From Dysgonomonas sp. 25 (lineage in GTDB: Bacteria > Bacteroidota > Bacteroidia > Bacteroidales > Dysgonomonadaceae): a stretch of 64,000 nt of DNA. The notes under the pieces were generated by a model. That model was not told the origin of the DNA and did not search any database. It saw only the letters and a program-made list of their open reading frames with translations. Below are positions 10,197 to 16,162 of this stretch, piece after piece; the first letter of the stretch is position 1; every line of letters starts with the position of its first letter. The stretch lies in assembly GCF_010501075.1 (NCBI RefSeq), contig NZ_QVMN01000001.1:124001-188000 (forward strand), read 5' to 3'. The position numbers and the translations under genes were made by a program.

Positions 10197-11145
10197 GAGA
10201 AGAGATCCCTCGCCTCCGTTCGGGATGACAACAAAAAGTAACATTTCTCTACTCATTTTCGATGTTTTTACCGAGTTACTTTTTCTTGCTTTTGTCATGT
10301 TGAGTGAAACGAAACATCTCACCGCGCAATTGGGAAGAGACTTCTCACCTTCGTTCGAAGTGACAAAAAAGTAGCAAAACTTTATTTATTTCGAACGTTT
10401 TTTGTTGATGTTACTTTTCCTCAGTGTGCCTCAGTGCCTTCTTCGTGGAACTCAGTGTCGCCTTTTCTTCCTCATTATTATTTGGAAGAGATCCCTCACC
10501 TTCCTTCGGGATGACAAAAAAAGTAACATTCCTCTACTCATTTTCGATGTTTTTACCGAGTTACTTTTTCTTGCTTTTGTCATGTTGAGTGAAACGAAAC
10601 ATCTCACCGCGCAATTGGGAAGAGACTTCTCACCTTCGTTCGAAGTGACAAAAAAGTAGCAAAACTTTATTTATTTCGAACGTTTTTTGTTGATGTTACT
10701 TTTCCTCAGTGTGCCTCAGTGCCTTCTTCGTGGAACTCAGTGTCGCCTTTTCTTCCTCATTATTATTTGGAAGAGATCCCTCACCTTCCTTCGGGATGAC
10801 AAAAAAAGTAACATTCCTCTACTCATTTTCGATGTTTTTACCGAGTTACTTTTTCTTGCTTTTGTCATGTTGAGTGAAACGAAACATCTCACCGCGCAAT
10901 TGGGAAGAGACTTCTCACCTTCGTTCGAAGTGACAAAAAAGTAGCAAAACTTTATTTATTTCGAACGTTTTTTGTTGATGTTACTTTTCCTCAGTGTGCC
11001 TCAGTGCCTTCTTCGTGGAACTCAGTGTCACCTTTTCTTCCTCATTATTATTTGGAAGAGATCCCTCGCCTCTGCTCGGGATGACAAAAAAAGTAACATT
11101 TCTCTACTCATTTTCGATGTTTTTTATCGGGTTACTTTTCTTTCT
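10197..11145. repeat. 285-bp tandem repeat, three full units plus a partial fourth
   Basis: Identical landmarks recur exactly 285 bp apart: AAAAAGTAACATT at about 10232, 10517, 10802 and 11087, and a TTG/ATG-started 85-codon open frame at 10402, 10687 and (shortened) 10972. Each unit has three modules in fixed order. The first is a hairpin block with AAAAAGTAAC / GTTACTTTTT ends. The second is a block opening TGTCATGTTGAGTGAAACG and closing GAAGTGACA. The third is a CTCAGTGTGCCTCAGTGCC block followed by GAGATCCCTCACC...GGGATGACA. Units 2 and 3 are almost identical; the outer copies differ at a few bases, as expected of recent internal duplication. The repeated open frame is a by-product, not a gene family. 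Confidence 0.9.
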
Positions 11146-11243: not shown

Positions 11244-12263
11244 TTATTGTAAGATTTCTTTTTCCGTCATTATCGGGTCTACATGCCCCAATCCCAAGCC
11301 ACATTGCTCCGAAGCAGCGCGGCAACCCCCGCGACATTTTTCCCATTTACTGCATTGCGCACAGTATTCGGGCACAATTTCGTTCCATGAGTTTGCATAC
11401 GGCGAATACAATATTTCTTCGATAGACTGTTCGAATATGTTCCCTGCAACTACCGGAGAATGATTGCACAGGCGTATGTTTCCGTTGATATCCATCGTGA
11501 TAGGCTTCCATAAAACATTGTCCGAGCAGTGCCCGAACATAATATTGTAATAGTCCGAAGGATCGAGCAGGCAATCCGGCGAACATACATTCGACGATAT
11601 AACCAAATCCAATTCCTCCGCCTTTTGGTTGGCGATTTCAAAAGCCTTCCGCAGCTGCGAATGCGTAGCCGATACCGAAGCCGGTTCAGCCGTTCCGCAA
11701 CCGCCGATATTGTATCGGTTCATCATTATACGTCGCAGGCCGAGCGCATCGATAAAATCGAGCGTGTCGCCCAGCACTTCGATGTTGTATTTGGTGAGGA
11801 CGATAACGGGTACGGGGTAGCCTTTCAGCTGTTGTACGGCGCGGATAGAAGCGATAGATTTTCGCCAGCTACCTTTTACTTGCGTGATATTGTCGTGTAT
11901 TGCCTCCTCTGCCGAGTGTATCGGAAACTCGAAAAGGGTTATGCCCATTTTGATGAGGCTTTGGTAATCGCTTTCCGTGCCTTTGAAGCCGTTGCTGATA
12001 ACGGTAACAGTTTTCCCCTCCATGCGGCAGAAAAGGGCTATCTCTTTCAATCGCTGGGCGACAAAAGGTTCTCCGCCTGTGAGGGTTACATTCTGTACCT
12101 CGATTTGTGCGAAAAGCTGCCTCAATGCTTTTATCGCTTTCGGGTACGAATCGAAAGTTTTCCGTTCGGCACCGGGAATTTTCCATACATTGTAGCAGTA
12201 ACGGCAGGCAAGGTTGCATTTGTCCGTCAATTCTAACGCTATATTCGGTAATTGGAGTTTCAT
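11244..12263 (-). CDS. Radical SAM/SPASM enzyme associated with the TCY-lipoprotein array
   Basis: This 339-aa protein has the radical SAM 4Fe-4S motif Cys16-x3-Cys20-x2-Cys23 (CNLACRYC) and the SAM-contacting GGEP at 63-66. The C-terminal SPASM region has Cys246 and Cys266 (HCSD ... GNIRLCNH), then Cys301, 304, 310, 314 and 321 (YCAQCSKWEKCRGGC), enough for two auxiliary clusters as in anaerobic sulfatase-maturing and RiPP-modifying enzymes. I start it at the ATG at 12263; a TTG four codons earlier is also possible. The gene begins 12 nt after the stop of the last of five TCY-motif lipoproteins and is probably the last gene of that operon. Modification of the lipoproteins, for example at their repeated Cys-Tyr pairs, is an inference from this arrangement; the exact reaction is unknown. 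Confidence 0.9.
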   Translation of the reverse strand: MKLQLPNIALELTDKCNLACRYCYNVWKIPGAERKTFDSYPKAIKALRQLFAQIEVQNVTLTGGEPFVAQRLKEIALFCRMEGKTVTVISNGFKGTESDYQSLIKMGITLFEFPIHSAEEAIHDNITQVKGSWRKSIASIRAVQQLKGYPVPVIVLTKYNIEVLGDTLDFIDALGLRRIMMNRYNIGGCGTAEPASVSATHSQLRKAFEIANQKAEELDLVISSNVCSPDCLLDPSDYYNIMFGHCSDNVLWKPITMDINGNIRLCNHSPVVAGNIFEQSIEEILYSPYANSWNEIVPEYCAQCSKWEKCRGGCRAASEQCGLGLGHVDPIMTEKEILQ

Positions 12264-12275
12264 CAGATAATACAA

Positions 12276-13448
12276 TTAAGGTAGTTTGAACTCAACCGCA
12301 AGGGTTATTACAGTTTTGACAGCTTCGCTGTTGTGCATGCCCGGCTCCCATTTGCCGGAGGTGGAGAGTACTCTGAGTGCTTCCTTATCTGCGTCGGGCG
12401 AGAGTTTAGTCAGCACCTTTTTGTTTACTATTTTTCCTTTTTTGTCTATGGCAAAGCTAAGGATAACTTCGCCTTCGACTTTATCTTTTAGCATACGCTC
12501 GTTGTACTGAATGTTGCTTTCCATCCATGCCCGGAAGCGATCAAGGTCTCCCTCCGGCGACGCGGGAGCTATTTGCACTTCGTTGTATGCGAACTTTGTT
12601 ATTTTTTTTGGCTGGTAGGGAGTTGATGGAACAATAACTACATCATAACATAGAATCATTTCTTTTTCCATCATTACGATGGGCTTACTACTGCCTATTA
12701 TGTTCGGAGTTCTGATTTCTTGTGTCTCGAATCCGACATACGAAAAGATAAGTATATCATTCCTTTTGGCTTTCAGAACGAATTTTCCGTCTACGTCCGT
12801 CAATACTCCAGTTGTTCCTCCTTTTATTGAAATAGAAAGGTACGCGATCGGTTCACTTCTTTCATCTACTACCTGTCCTTTTACTTCTATTTCCTCTGCA
12901 ATGCTTGGGGAAACGGTAATTTTATAACATGTTACACGGGGATGGATATTTACGACTGAATCTTCAAACGGTTCTTCTTCTAATATTATCGGCTTATTCT
13001 GAATCTCTGTTATGGCAATTTCTTTCGATACAAAGCCGGGATACGAAAATACGAGCGAATCGTTCCTGTTCACCTGCAGGCTGAAATTCCCATTTATATC
13101 AGCAGTGGCTATATCGTTCGGTTTATCTTTGATGCTGATTCTTGCGCCCGGGATAGGTTGGTTAAGGTTATCTTTTATATTTCCCCTGATGGTCAATGTA
13201 TCAGAATTTTCTCCCTCTAAGGGCTCTATGGCTATGATGTAACAGGTGACATCAGTTATTGGTTTGTGTGGTATTACATTGGGGTCTACGGCTTCCTTTT
13301 TTGAAGATTTGCAACCCGCTGATGCTACTAATCCCAAGATTAATGTGCCCAGCAATAATTTGTATTTAACAACAAATGGTGCTCCGTTCGTCTTATCCGA
13401 AAGGAAAGAGAAAAAGCGGAACAGGATATGATACGTCTTGATTTTCAT
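12276..13448 (-). CDS. TCY-motif lipoprotein with two carboxypeptidase-regulatory-like domains and a TonB C-terminal domain
   Basis: This 390-aa protein is the largest of five tandem paralogs. It shares the family N-terminus (MKIKTYHILFRFFSFLSDKT..., hydrophobic segment at 31-44, putative lipid Cys46 in ASAGC). Two CarboxypepD_reg-like beta-sandwich domains follow at about 85-155 and 187-258 (GNFSLQVNRNDSLVFSYPGF; GKFVLKAKRNDILIFSYVGF), then a TonB C-terminal-like domain at about 295-390 (EGEVILSFAIDKKGKI). A Cys-Tyr motif sits before each domain: Cys69-Tyr70 (VTCYIIAIEP), Cys174-Tyr175 (VTCYKITVSP) and Cys267-Tyr268 (LCYDVVIVP). It has no proline-rich TonB arm or ExbB-type anchor, so a real energy-transducer role is doubtful. 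It starts 3 nt after the stop of the upstream paralog and ends 12 nt before the radical SAM gene. Confidence 0.85.
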   Translation of the reverse strand: MKIKTYHILFRFFSFLSDKTNGAPFVVKYKLLLGTLILGLVASAGCKSSKKEAVDPNVIPHKPITDVTCYIIAIEPLEGENSDTLTIRGNIKDNLNQPIPGARISIKDKPNDIATADINGNFSLQVNRNDSLVFSYPGFVSKEIAITEIQNKPIILEEEPFEDSVVNIHPRVTCYKITVSPSIAEEIEVKGQVVDERSEPIAYLSISIKGGTTGVLTDVDGKFVLKAKRNDILIFSYVGFETQEIRTPNIIGSSKPIVMMEKEMILCYDVVIVPSTPYQPKKITKFAYNEVQIAPASPEGDLDRFRAWMESNIQYNERMLKDKVEGEVILSFAIDKKGKIVNKKVLTKLSPDADKEALRVLSTSGKWEPGMHNSEAVKTVITLAVEFKLP

Positions 13449-13451
13449 TTT

Positions 13452-13946
13452 TCATTTATTTTTAGTTACAACAACATAGCACGTAATAAGAAAATCACCG
13501 GAGACAGCGGCTGTGTCTTCTTCCATTATTATCGGAGTATTATTGCTGATAATATCTGAAACTGAAATTTCTTTTGTTTTCATCCCTATTAGAGAGAATA
13601 TAAGCGTATCATTTTTTTGTGCTTGTATAGTGAATTTTCCCGACACATCTGCCATTGTATTATACTCTTCTTTCTCTTTAATGACAACGGATGCCCCTAT
13701 TACAGGTTCTTCATTTTTGTCTATAATAGTTCCATTGATAGTTTTTTCGTCTACAATGCCTGATGCAGTAATTGGATTGTCGTATGTTACTCCCTTCCCC
13801 GACGATTTGCAGCTCGCAGTGGTTACTAATCCCAAGATCAATGTGCCCAGCAATAATTTGTATTTAACAAAGAATGGTGCTCCGTCCGTCTTATCCGAAA
13901 GGAAAGAGAAAAAGCGGAACAGGATATGGCATGTTTTGATTTTCAT
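13452..13946 (-). CDS. Short TCY-motif lipoprotein with one carboxypeptidase-regulatory-like domain
   Basis: This 164-aa paralog has the shared N-terminus (MKIKTCHILFRFF, LSDKT at 16-20) and putative lipid Cys46 (TTASC). One CarboxypepD_reg-like domain follows at about 69-140 (NGTIIDKNEEPVIGASVVIK, GKFTIQAQKNDTLIFSL). It has no TonB domain and ends with a single Cys156-Tyr157 motif (LITCYVVVTKNK). The motif therefore lies at the very C-terminus here but between domains in the neighbours, which argues that it is a separate element and not part of either fold. The first 45 codons are nearly identical in DNA to those of the downstream and upstream copies. It is 3 nt upstream of the 390-aa paralog, surely in the same transcript. 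Confidence 0.8.
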   Translation of the reverse strand: MKIKTCHILFRFFSFLSDKTDGAPFFVKYKLLLGTLILGLVTTASCKSSGKGVTYDNPITASGIVDEKTINGTIIDKNEEPVIGASVVIKEKEEYNTMADVSGKFTIQAQKNDTLIFSLIGMKTKEISVSDIISNNTPIIMEEDTAAVSGDFLITCYVVVTKNK

Positions 13947-13993
13947 AGCTTTGCCTCTATTTATGTGGTTTGATAATTACGAAGATATACATT

Positions 13994-14713
13994 TTAGTCT
14001 TGTGGTAACCTAAAAACAACCGGTATTGTAACTTTGGTTTTCACTTTAAACCCTTTATATTCTCCCGGAGTCCAGTCTGGAGACAGTTTCAATAATCTCA
14101 TTACCTCTTTGTCGGCATCGGGCGAGAAAGTACGAAGGATATTTATATTGGTGATTTTCCCTTTTTTATCAATAATGAAGCGTATTGTAACCCGTCCTTG
14201 TTCTTCGTTTACTATCATACTTTCGGGATATTCGATATTTTCACATATCCATTCGGTAAATTTTTTCAGATTGCCTACAGGGGAGACAGGAGTTTTCTTT
14301 AGTTCTTCGTATTCGTATATTTTGTCCCGCTCCATATCAGAAAAAGCTGGCATATAGCATGTTTCGATTTGTTCAGGTTGGGAGGCTATCGTATCATAGC
14401 AGGTAATAATCGCCGGAGGAGGAATCTTCGGAACTTTTGCAGAAACAAGCTTGGGAGATATATGTTCCCCGATGGTGTCTTTTGTTGCCGAAACGGTTGT
14501 ATCATTGGATAATACCTTGATGGTATTGGCCTTCGCCGGTTCTTCCTCGTTGCAGGTTGCTACAGCTTTGGGCTTATGGCACGAAGTGGCGGATAATCCC
14601 AAGATCAGTGTGCCCAACATCAACTTGTATTTTACCACGAAAGGCGCTCCGTTCGTCTTATCCGAAAGGAAAGAGAAAAAGCGGAACAGGATATGGCATG
14701 TTTTGATTTTCAT
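13994..14713 (-). CDS. TCY-motif lipoprotein with TonB C-terminal domain
   Basis: This 239-aa paralog has the shared N-terminus, putative lipid Cys45 (SATSC), then HKPKAVATC with Cys54 followed by Asn instead of Tyr. A low-complexity Thr/Ser/Pro-rich linker leads to two motifs: Cys105-Tyr106 (AIITCYDTIA) and Cys119-Tyr120 (IETCYMPAF). Residues about 143-239 form a TonB C-terminal-like domain (GRVTIRFIIDKKGKITN, LSPDWTPGEYKG, VFRLPQD). It is separated from each neighbour by a 47-bp spacer that is almost identical on both sides, showing that the duplication unit is gene plus leader. No TonB-like membrane anchor is present. Confidence 0.8.
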   Translation of the reverse strand: MKIKTCHILFRFFSFLSDKTNGAPFVVKYKLMLGTLILGLSATSCHKPKAVATCNEEEPAKANTIKVLSNDTTVSATKDTIGEHISPKLVSAKVPKIPPPAIITCYDTIASQPEQIETCYMPAFSDMERDKIYEYEELKKTPVSPVGNLKKFTEWICENIEYPESMIVNEEQGRVTIRFIIDKKGKITNINILRTFSPDADKEVMRLLKLSPDWTPGEYKGFKVKTKVTIPVVFRLPQD

Positions 14714-14760
14714 AGCTTTGCCTCTATTTATGTGGTTCGATAACTACGAAGATATACATT

Positions 14761-15327
14761 TTAGTCTTGTGGTAACCTAAAAACAACCGGTATTGTAACT
14801 TCGGTATTCATCCTATACCCTCTATGTTCTCCCGGCCTCCAGGCTTTAGACAACTTCAACAATCTCATTACCTCTTTGTCGGCATCGGGCGAAAAAGTAC
14901 GGAGGATATTTATATTGGTGATTTTCCCTTTTTTATCGATAATGAAGCGTACTGTAACCCGTCCTTGTTCTTCGTTTGCGATCATACTTTCGGGATATTC
15001 GATATTTTCGCGCATCCATTCGGTAAATTTATCTATGTCCCCTACAGGAGATACAGGAGGGGTTTCGATTACTCCGTATGGGAGTACCTCATTTTCGCTC
15101 ACATCAGGAGAAACGTATATATTATAACATGTATCGACTTGTTCGGGCTTGGGTACTACCTCGTTACAGGTTGCTACAGCTTTGGGCTTATGGCACGAAG
15201 TAGCGGATAATCCGATAATCAGCATCCCCAACATCAACTTGTATTTTATCATGGAAGGTGCTCCGTTCGTCTTGTCTGACAGAAAGGGAAAAAAGCGAAA
15301 TAGGGTATGATATGTCTTGGTTTTCAT
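14761..15327 (-). CDS. Short TCY-motif lipoprotein with TonB C-terminal domain
   Basis: This 188-aa paralog has the shared N-terminus (slightly diverged: MKTKTYHTLFRFFPFLSDKT), putative lipid Cys45 (SATSC), Cys54 with Asn after it (AVATCNE), then one full motif at Cys67-Tyr68 (VDTCYNIYVSP). The linker is much shorter than in the flanking copies. The TonB C-terminal-like domain is nearly the same as in the 239-aa copy (GRVTVRFIIDKKGKITN, WRPGEHRGYRMNTEV). The preceding 76-bp gap contains a degraded piece of another paralog, so the array has lost at least one member here. Confidence 0.8.
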   Translation of the reverse strand: MKTKTYHTLFRFFPFLSDKTNGAPSMIKYKLMLGMLIIGLSATSCHKPKAVATCNEVVPKPEQVDTCYNIYVSPDVSENEVLPYGVIETPPVSPVGDIDKFTEWMRENIEYPESMIANEEQGRVTVRFIIDKKGKITNINILRTFSPDADKEVMRLLKLSKAWRPGEHRGYRMNTEVTIPVVFRLPQD

Positions 15328-15341
15328 GATTTTGCCTCTAT

Positions 15342-15443
15342 TTATGTGGTTTGTAATCTCATCACTTCTTTATCGGCATCCGGCGAGAAGGTACGGAGGG
15401 ATATTATATGGGTAGTTTTTCCGTTTCTGCCGATGGTGAAACG
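15342..15443 (-). pseudogene. Remnant of a further TCY-lipoprotein TonB domain
   Basis: In one minus-strand frame this stretch reads RFTIGRNGKTTH, then LRTFSPDADKEVMRL, then TAA. This matches the middle of the paralogs' TonB domain (RFIIDKKGKITN, LRTFSPDADKEVMRLL). Both sides are cut: the upstream side joins directly to the last codons of the 252-aa gene, and the downstream side joins to the conserved CACATAAATAGAGGCAAA leader after MRL. Two deletions inside the array explain it. Confidence 0.75.
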
Positions 15444-16162
15444 TCGTCTTTTGGTAATCTAAAAATAATCGGTATGGTGATTTTGGTTTTCACTTTATGC
15501 CCTCTATGTTTTCCCGGCGTCCAGTCTGGAGACAACTTTAATACTCTTATTACCTCTTTGTCGGCATCGGGCGAGAAAGTACGGAGGATATTTATATCGG
15601 TTATTTTTCCTTCTTTGTCTATGATGAAACGTACCATAACCCGCCCTTGTTCTCCATTTTTCAGCATGCTTTCGGGATATTCGATATTTTCACCTATCCA
15701 CTTAAAAAATTCCTCCAGGTTTCCGACAGGAGATACAGGAGGGGTTTCCATTCCTTCGTATGGGAATATTTCGTCCTGCTTGGGATCTGGTACAACCGGA
15801 TCAGGGTAGGCTGGCATATAGCATGTCGGTTCGGGTATTGTTATCTCATAACAGCTAATAATAAAAGTCGTTTCAGGAGCTTCTACAGGAACAGGTTTGG
15901 GAGATGTATGTTTGCCGATCGTGTCTTTTGTTGCCGAGACGGTTGTATCTTTAGCAGATAACACCTCGATGGTATCGACATTCACTGGTTCTATCTCGTA
16001 ACAGGTTACTATAGCTCTGGACTTATGGCACGATGTAGCAGATAGCCCGATAATCAGCGTGCCCAACATCAACTTGTATTTTACGAATAACGAAGAGCCG
16101 TTTGTCTTATCAGACAAGAACGAAAACAAGCGGAATAGTATCTTGTACGATTGCATTTTCAT
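15404..16162 (-). CDS. TCY-motif lipoprotein with TonB C-terminal domain and chimeric C-terminus (first gene of the array)
   Basis: This 252-aa paralog is the first gene of the array in transcription order. It has the shared N-terminus (MKMQSYKILFRLFSFLSDKT), putative lipid Cys45 and three motifs: Cys54-Tyr55 (IVTCYEIEP), Cys104-Tyr105 (IISCYEITIP) and Cys114-Tyr115 (PTCYMPAYP). The TonB C-terminal-like domain covers about 145-240. Its sisters stop after VFRLPQD; this one runs on for twelve codons (DVSPSAETEKLPI region). Those codons are read out of frame from a remnant of another paralog, so the tail is a deletion scar. No convincing promoter is visible in the 92-bp gap upstream; a weak TATCTTAG on the minus strand near 16225 is the nearest candidate. 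Confidence 0.8.
   Translation of the reverse strand: MKMQSYKILFRLFSFLSDKTNGSSLFVKYKLMLGTLIIGLSATSCHKSRAIVTCYEIEPVNVDTIEVLSAKDTTVSATKDTIGKHTSPKPVPVEAPETTFIISCYEITIPEPTCYMPAYPDPVVPDPKQDEIFPYEGMETPPVSPVGNLEEFFKWIGENIEYPESMLKNGEQGRVMVRFIIDKEGKITDINILRTFSPDADKEVIRVLKLSPDWTPGKHRGHKVKTKITIPIIFRLPKDDVSPSAETEKLPI

Follow-up and report, generated by a model that had tools for sequence, protein, structure and literature searches.

The window, a stretch of 64,000 nucleotides from Dysgonomonas sp. 25, carries on its minus strand five paralogous lipoprotein genes, followed directly by the gene for a radical S-adenosylmethionine (SAM) enzyme of the SPASM type. We propose that they form a two-component system of post-translational modification, in which the lipoproteins are the substrates and the enzyme, using their leader, modifies repeated Cys-Tyr (CY) sites in the cytoplasm before export. 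We give this reading a probability of roughly 80%. The genes, motifs, domains, predicted fold, co-occurrence and enzyme tree were computed here; from them we infer that modification occurs, when it occurs, how the leader is recognized, what the chemistry might be and that the products have a role in the envelope.

According to this model, the common leader, LFRxFSFLSDKTNGxxxFVKYKLLLGTLI, and the lipobox behind it would both mark the proteins for recognition and serve as their lipoprotein signal peptide. The cytoplasmic enzyme would find the lipoproteins by this leader and alter the [T/S/M/L]CY sites that recur in their flexible linkers. The modified proteins would next be exported by the Sec route, cleaved at the signal and lipidated, and would reach the envelope with their TonB_C and CarboxypepD_reg domains kept. 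The likeliest chemistry would be an oxidative change limited to the Cys-aromatic pair, for example a cross-link through the Cys sulfur.

The lipoprotein array and its enzyme

A preliminary description of this DNA had reported five same-strand paralogs with a common 45-residue N-terminus and differing C-terminal parts, and both points hold. The alignment shows that residues 1–45/46, up to the lipobox Cys, are common to all five proteins, and 23 of its 24 invariant columns fall in residues 1–40. The lipobox Cys, judged by eye, stands at position 45 or 46 after a hydrophobic stretch in each protein. Behind the leader, Pfam finds TonB_C alone in three proteins, one CarboxypepD_reg-type domain in one, and two such domains plus TonB_C in another. 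Lipoprotein 1 (15404..16162, 252 residues) has CY at residues 54, 104 and 114 and TonB_C; lipoprotein 2 (14761..15327, 188 residues) has CY at 67 and TonB_C; and lipoprotein 3 (13994..14713, 239 residues) has CY at 105 and 119 and TonB_C. Lipoprotein 4 (13452..13946, 164 residues) carries the single CarboxypepD_reg-type domain and one CY at 156, near the C-terminus, and lipoprotein 5 (12276..13448, 390 residues, lipobox C46) carries the two CarboxypepD_reg-type domains, TonB_C and CY at 69, 174 and 267.

These ten CY dipeptides leave few other cysteines in the five proteins: the lipobox Cys, a leader Cys6 in two proteins, two ATCNE and one WICEN. None of the ten falls within the best Pfam stretches; they sit in linkers that separate or flank the domains. 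The third CY of the 390-residue lipoprotein falls inside a SusC/RagA (TIGR04056) stretch at residues 187–282. In an AlphaFold2 model of that lipoprotein built from eight rows (mean predicted local distance difference test score, pLDDT, 68.9), its three CY sites lie in segments with pLDDT below 50 (residues 16–74, 155–183 and 264–281), flanked by better-modelled domains.

The array has apparently expanded and recombined through duplication, because a 51-nucleotide TonB_C-coding scrap (ISLRTFSPDADKEVMRL, 15354..15404, minus strand) lies between lipoproteins 1 and 2 and because stretches of 200–300 nucleotides within the array are 65–88% alike. All five leader matches in the window genome fall inside this locus. 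An acidic stretch behind the lipobox Cys is a surface-export signal; its absence from the window proteins hints that they face the periplasmic side. The TonB_C and CarboxypepD_reg domains would suit an envelope location.

The enzyme (11244..12263, minus strand, 339 residues) starts at the ATG at 12263 and not at the mechanically assigned TTG at 12275, which leaves 12 nucleotides between the stop of the last lipoprotein and the enzyme start, as previously described. It has the CxxxCxxC core and the full SPASM cysteine set (C-x14-G-x4-C ... CxxC-x5-C-x3-C ... C), Pfam assigns it to Radical_SAM (PF04055, 7.7e-20) and SPASM (PF13186, 2.1e-6), and its predicted fold resembles solved SPASM peptide-modifying enzymes, all of which place it in the SPASM subgroup. 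The protein begins at the radical SAM core, with no N-terminal extension, and its closest relatives by name are from Dysgonomonas. Directly 3' of the enzyme gene, at 10233–11102, lie three tandem repeats of 285 nucleotides that are 97–100% alike and apparently noncoding.

Pairing of enzyme and Cys-Tyr proteins across genomes

Do relatives of the enzyme also stand beside exported CY proteins? When species genomes were scanned with the alignment of the enzyme, 74 loci came up; 32 of them (identity of 38% or more, leaving out L103, a match of 261 nucleotides) were combined with 12 of 26 places from a sample of the order into a neighbour set of 44 enzymes. The 14 order-sample places omitted were the window, L108–L113 (judged, by their identical precursors, to duplicate loci of the species scan), the contig-edge fragment L125 and the low-scoring L126–L131; L126–L130 are 99.7–100% identical to enzymes of the sister clade described below, and L131 is unclassified. 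An exported Cys-aromatic protein adjoins 40 of the 44 enzymes: a CY protein in 39 cases and, in L118, an array with Cys-His (CH). At the four misses, L046, L051, L056 and L114, the contig extends upstream for 449, 130, 7 and 46 nucleotides, respectively, and no precursor was found downstream either, where 1.5–8 kb of contig is present. When the near-identical pairs L056/L114 and L070/L107 (98–99%) are merged, the count becomes 39 of 42. The CY proteins mostly lie upstream of the enzyme gene; they are downstream in L038 and L052, as is one of the two in L042.

As far as these loci allow a test, orthologs of the enzyme do not lie beside unrelated genes, and the precursor-plus-maturase arrangement suggested in the preliminary description is strongly supported by gene neighbourhood, with its misses at contig edges. 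That description had placed the arrangement on exported proteins "instead of small peptides", which is too narrow: in L036, L037, L058, L059 and L118, tandem small precursors of 67–128 residues replace the multi-domain proteins. Eight precursors of the CY or CH type reached no family cut-off in NCBIfam or Pfam.

The association with CY lies beyond chance. In a control comparison, a detector of the same type was run over a shorter distance (1.5 kb upstream versus 6 kb); it picked up CY at 39 of the 44 relatives versus 1 of 23 sister-clade enzymes and none of six true TIGR04133 loci. Of 17 further Cys-x dipeptides run on the 44 loci, CD came out top, with 13; the x-Tyr controls SY, AY and TY were found at 21, 7 and 6 loci, respectively. 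Site totals in the same comparison were 102 for CY, 42 for SY and 19 for CG, the next Cys-x dipeptide. Furthermore, CY is present in 37 of 37 proteins chosen by the Bacteroidales leader pattern alone (duplicates removed), a set that is nearly, though not wholly, blind to CY, as some loci were fetched with a query that has one CY among its final residues. In these proteins, from the window and its relatives, 70 of 93 cysteines behind the signal are followed by Tyr. The loci were fetched through an enzyme or a leader query, and open reading frames shortened by a contig end were skipped; the lipoprotein at 14761–15327 misses the leader pattern, yet it has one CY.

The enzyme tree agrees with the neighbourhoods. 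It holds 67 enzymes (the 74 loci minus eight that were short, partial or below 25% identity, plus the window) and was midpoint-rooted for drawing, with warnings of long branches and uneven letter make-up. One branch (support 100/98) parts the CY-paired enzymes from enzymes paired with a W-x2-FK-x2-W motif. On the CY side, 36 of 44 rows were scored CY and eight none; on the other side, 17 of 23 were scored W and six none, with L082 and L089, which have the W motif and a stray CY, labelled W. Of the eight CY-side rows scored none, three (L038, L041 and L071) show CY when inspected by eye, two (L046 and L051) sit at the ends of contigs and three (L072, L077 and L080) count as misses.

An outer clade on the CY side comprises Myxococcota, Chloroflexota, Planctomycetota, Bacillota and others, according to the titles of metagenome-assembled genomes, whose phylum labels may be wrong. 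Its strongest cases are L065, L067, L073 and L081, with two to five CY per protein. At L071 (6294–6746, Bacillota), a 150-residue protein with five CY sites and no signal peptide adjoins two neighbouring radical SAM genes and looks like a classic precursor of a ribosomally synthesized and post-translationally modified peptide (RiPP). At L072 (7598–8341, Armatimonadota), the protein adjoining the enzyme has repeats such as CVTHNN and CIAHYN, perhaps another variant of Cys plus aromatic residue or His.

In the sister clade, which spans several phyla by title, the enzyme gene is directly preceded by a gene for a protein of 289–531 residues, exported by its look. The partner motif, W-x2-[FLY]-x3-W-x2-[LI] and mostly W-x2-FK-x2-W-x2-LD-x-[IV]-x-P, occurs just upstream of the enzyme at 19 of 23 loci (L075, L078, L079, L083, L084, L085, L086, L088, L089 and L092–L101). 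The two W-type proteins scanned reached no family cut-off in NCBIfam or Pfam. The sister clade would be a second uncatalogued pair of radical SAM enzyme and exported protein.

Co-occurrence was also followed genome by genome. A full-length enzyme is present in 8 of 25 genomes of the genus and the leader in all eight of those, for which a hypergeometric estimate that ignores kinship is 8e-6. One further genus genome (G021) has an enzyme remnant at a contig end (L010:111–413), with no leader protein found. In the order sample of 393 genomes, 24 have an enzyme match (E ≤ 1e-60) and five have the leader, and all five of these have the enzyme. Four of the 24 match only through enzymes of the sister-clade type, the place L131 being unclassified, and in G181, one of the five, the only leader match is weak (3e-6) and lies on a different contig from the enzyme. 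In many other lineages with the enzyme, the leader is of a different kind and has an additional hydrophobic helix; therefore, enzyme genomes without the window's leader are no contradiction. Some relatives' signals end in sites resembling AxA followed by Q, with no lipobox Cys there. In the phylum sample of 395 genomes, the enzyme matches (E ≤ 1e-60) in three: the window genome, G583 (L132), with the same CY protein as L060, and G459 (L133). As far as the order sample allows a test, the leader did not turn up without the enzyme. In the genus, the one leader-like match outside the eight enzyme genomes spans 27 residues in a 55%-complete genome, with no CY protein of this kind seen within 1.5 kb.

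The enzyme may act in trans, because orphan CY lipoproteins (L012:706–1725 and L014:1501–1827) and the leader matches in G253 lie away from the enzyme in enzyme-bearing genomes. Carriage on plasmids was rejected, as 72,556 plasmid records gave no tblastn match at E ≤ 1e-30.

Several observations weigh against modification of CY sites by this enzyme. The neighbour detector for the 44 enzymes was written after the motif had been seen. In the outer clade, L063, L064, L068 and L069 rest on a single CY, and no CY neighbour was found for L072, L077 and L080. In G459 (269 bits), the neighbour of the enzyme is a second radical SAM gene, and the same strand shows no CY protein within 1.5 kb. Not every copy of the site is kept in the window, where two are decayed to TCN. 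The fold matches are tied and name no reaction. No partner resembling PqqD or a RiPP recognition element (RRE), which might have accounted for recognition of the leader, was noticed in the loci read, where no profile search was made.

The Cys-Tyr site and its possible chemistry

Flanking residues were taken from 117 CY sites in sequences chosen for CY, which serve for this purpose only. The residue preceding Cys is T at 59 sites, M at 20, S at 15 and L at 9. Pro stands at +6 (40 sites) or +7 (30 sites) from Cys, and the residues after Tyr are variable; the second residue after Tyr (Tyr+2; 116 sites) is P in 27, V in 22, I in 17, T in 12, A in 10 and M in 9. In L049, one CY site ends the protein (...NTCYF, then stop), and the same holds for L047 (...NTCYY, then stop). 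In L118, five tandem proteins of 75–81 residues have CH in place of CY. Because of this natural Tyr-to-His array and the CY copies at the very C-terminus, we favour a change within the Cys-aromatic pair, although few cases support it.

A maturase of the triceptide type would instead form a cyclophane by bonding the ring of Tyr or His to the beta carbon of the second residue after it. Other SPASM enzymes act in this way on Tyr and His, and ScaB tolerates a His-to-Tyr change, according to a review (PMC11002830); the Tyr/His exchange in L118 fits this pattern. On the other hand, Cys is conserved no less than the aromatic residue, whereas Tyr+2 varies, and the C-terminal CY sites of L049 and L047 have no Tyr+2, an argument from two sites at which modification is itself putative. 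The variable Tyr+2 and these C-terminal sites led us to set the cyclophane aside as first choice, and we regard it as unlikely. Somewhat less probable still is a reaction like that of the anaerobic sulfatase-maturating enzyme (anSME), in which Cys of the export-bound proteins would be oxidized to formylglycine or a thioaldehyde.

The neighbourhoods bear on a further explanation, in which the enzyme would synthesize a small molecule or work elsewhere, while unmodified CY sites would bind metal or haem in neighbouring envelope proteins. The closest named profiles include several cofactor enzymes (PqqE, NirJ and AhbD), and a multi-Cys linker could bind metal. Yet no further biosynthetic gene recurring beside the pair was noticed in the loci read, where no systematic test was made, the enzyme tracks the substrate motif across the tree, and the small array precursors resemble RiPP precursors. 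We consider this explanation improbable. No gene for a peptidase was seen next to the loci read, and the CY segments of the window proteins remain attached to their domains. The segment DVVIV/EVVVV behind the last CY of the Dysgonomonas proteins had been read as a TonB box; this was dropped, as other phyla do not show it.

With CY modification as the preferred reading, the motif is compact and testable, CY or CH with a natural substitution. The predicted radical chemistry would extend beyond small peptides to whole lipoproteins of the envelope that bear TonB and carboxypeptidase-like domains. More tentatively, these loci might belong to an undescribed class of radical SAM-modified proteins spread over several phyla. 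In such a class, the signal peptide would serve as leader, and CY or CH units, each joined internally, would be carried in many copies by small or multi-domain lipoproteins of the surface or periplasm, with the sister clade acting likewise on W-x2-FK-x2-W in another exported protein.

Relation to known systems

The general arrangement of lipoprotein genes next to a radical SAM gene is already catalogued as TIGR04133/TIGR04134, a pair that shares with the window system the gene order (lipoprotein genes directly 5' of a SPASM-type radical SAM gene) and the genus. Membership in that pair, a comparison proposed in the preliminary description, fails: the enzyme scores 57 bits against a cut-off of 425, and two lipoproteins score 18.5 and 18.9 bits against 39.8, the other three being unlisted at E ≤ 1. 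The window enzyme is 21% identical to a true member, the N-terminus of the partners differs, and in the six true TIGR04133 loci read the partners carry YGTP and no CY. Enzymes above the TIGR04133 cut-off occur in 17 of 61 relatives, and G010 and G018 carry both systems. That the CY pair is the catalogued one is thus extremely improbable. The best-scoring NCBIfam profiles for the window enzyme, GeoRSP (TIGR04303, 89 bits, cut-off 400) and PqqE (TIGR02109, 86 bits, cut-off 381), also fall far short. No description of the CY system was found in the literature searched, which comprised open-licence papers, and the earlier remark that its motif and paralog array could not be matched to a described system still holds. 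The result is a predicted maturase–substrate pair with no name in NCBIfam or Pfam as scanned and no counterpart among the catalogued systems found.

The sactipeptide maturases SkfB and SuiB, as well as anSME, share the fold and the auxiliary-cluster cysteines with the window enzyme, which differs in lacking an N-terminal extension, in its substrate motif and in having envelope proteins as putative substrates. The N-terminal extension is the position of the RRE. Two traits are RiPP-like: the enzyme gene lies beside precursor genes (adjacency only), and the paralogous precursors have a conserved leader with the rest variable. Triceptide maturases (three-residue cyclophane-forming enzymes, 3-CyFE) are also SPASM enzymes whose aromatic residue may be Tyr or His (PMC11002830); the window system differs in its fixed Cys before the aromatic residue and in having no fixed Tyr+2.

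The nearest working precedent is the bufferins, precursors with modified Cys in which a Sec signal peptide, in some cases of the lipoprotein type, replaces the classic leader (PMC12452194). Their modifier is a multinuclear non-heme iron-dependent oxidative enzyme (MNIO) with a partner protein, whereas here it would be a radical SAM enzyme; a role in copper is reported for the bufferins (PMC12452194). If the proposal is true, the CY system adds a radical SAM case to the few modified precursors that are exported by the Sec route.

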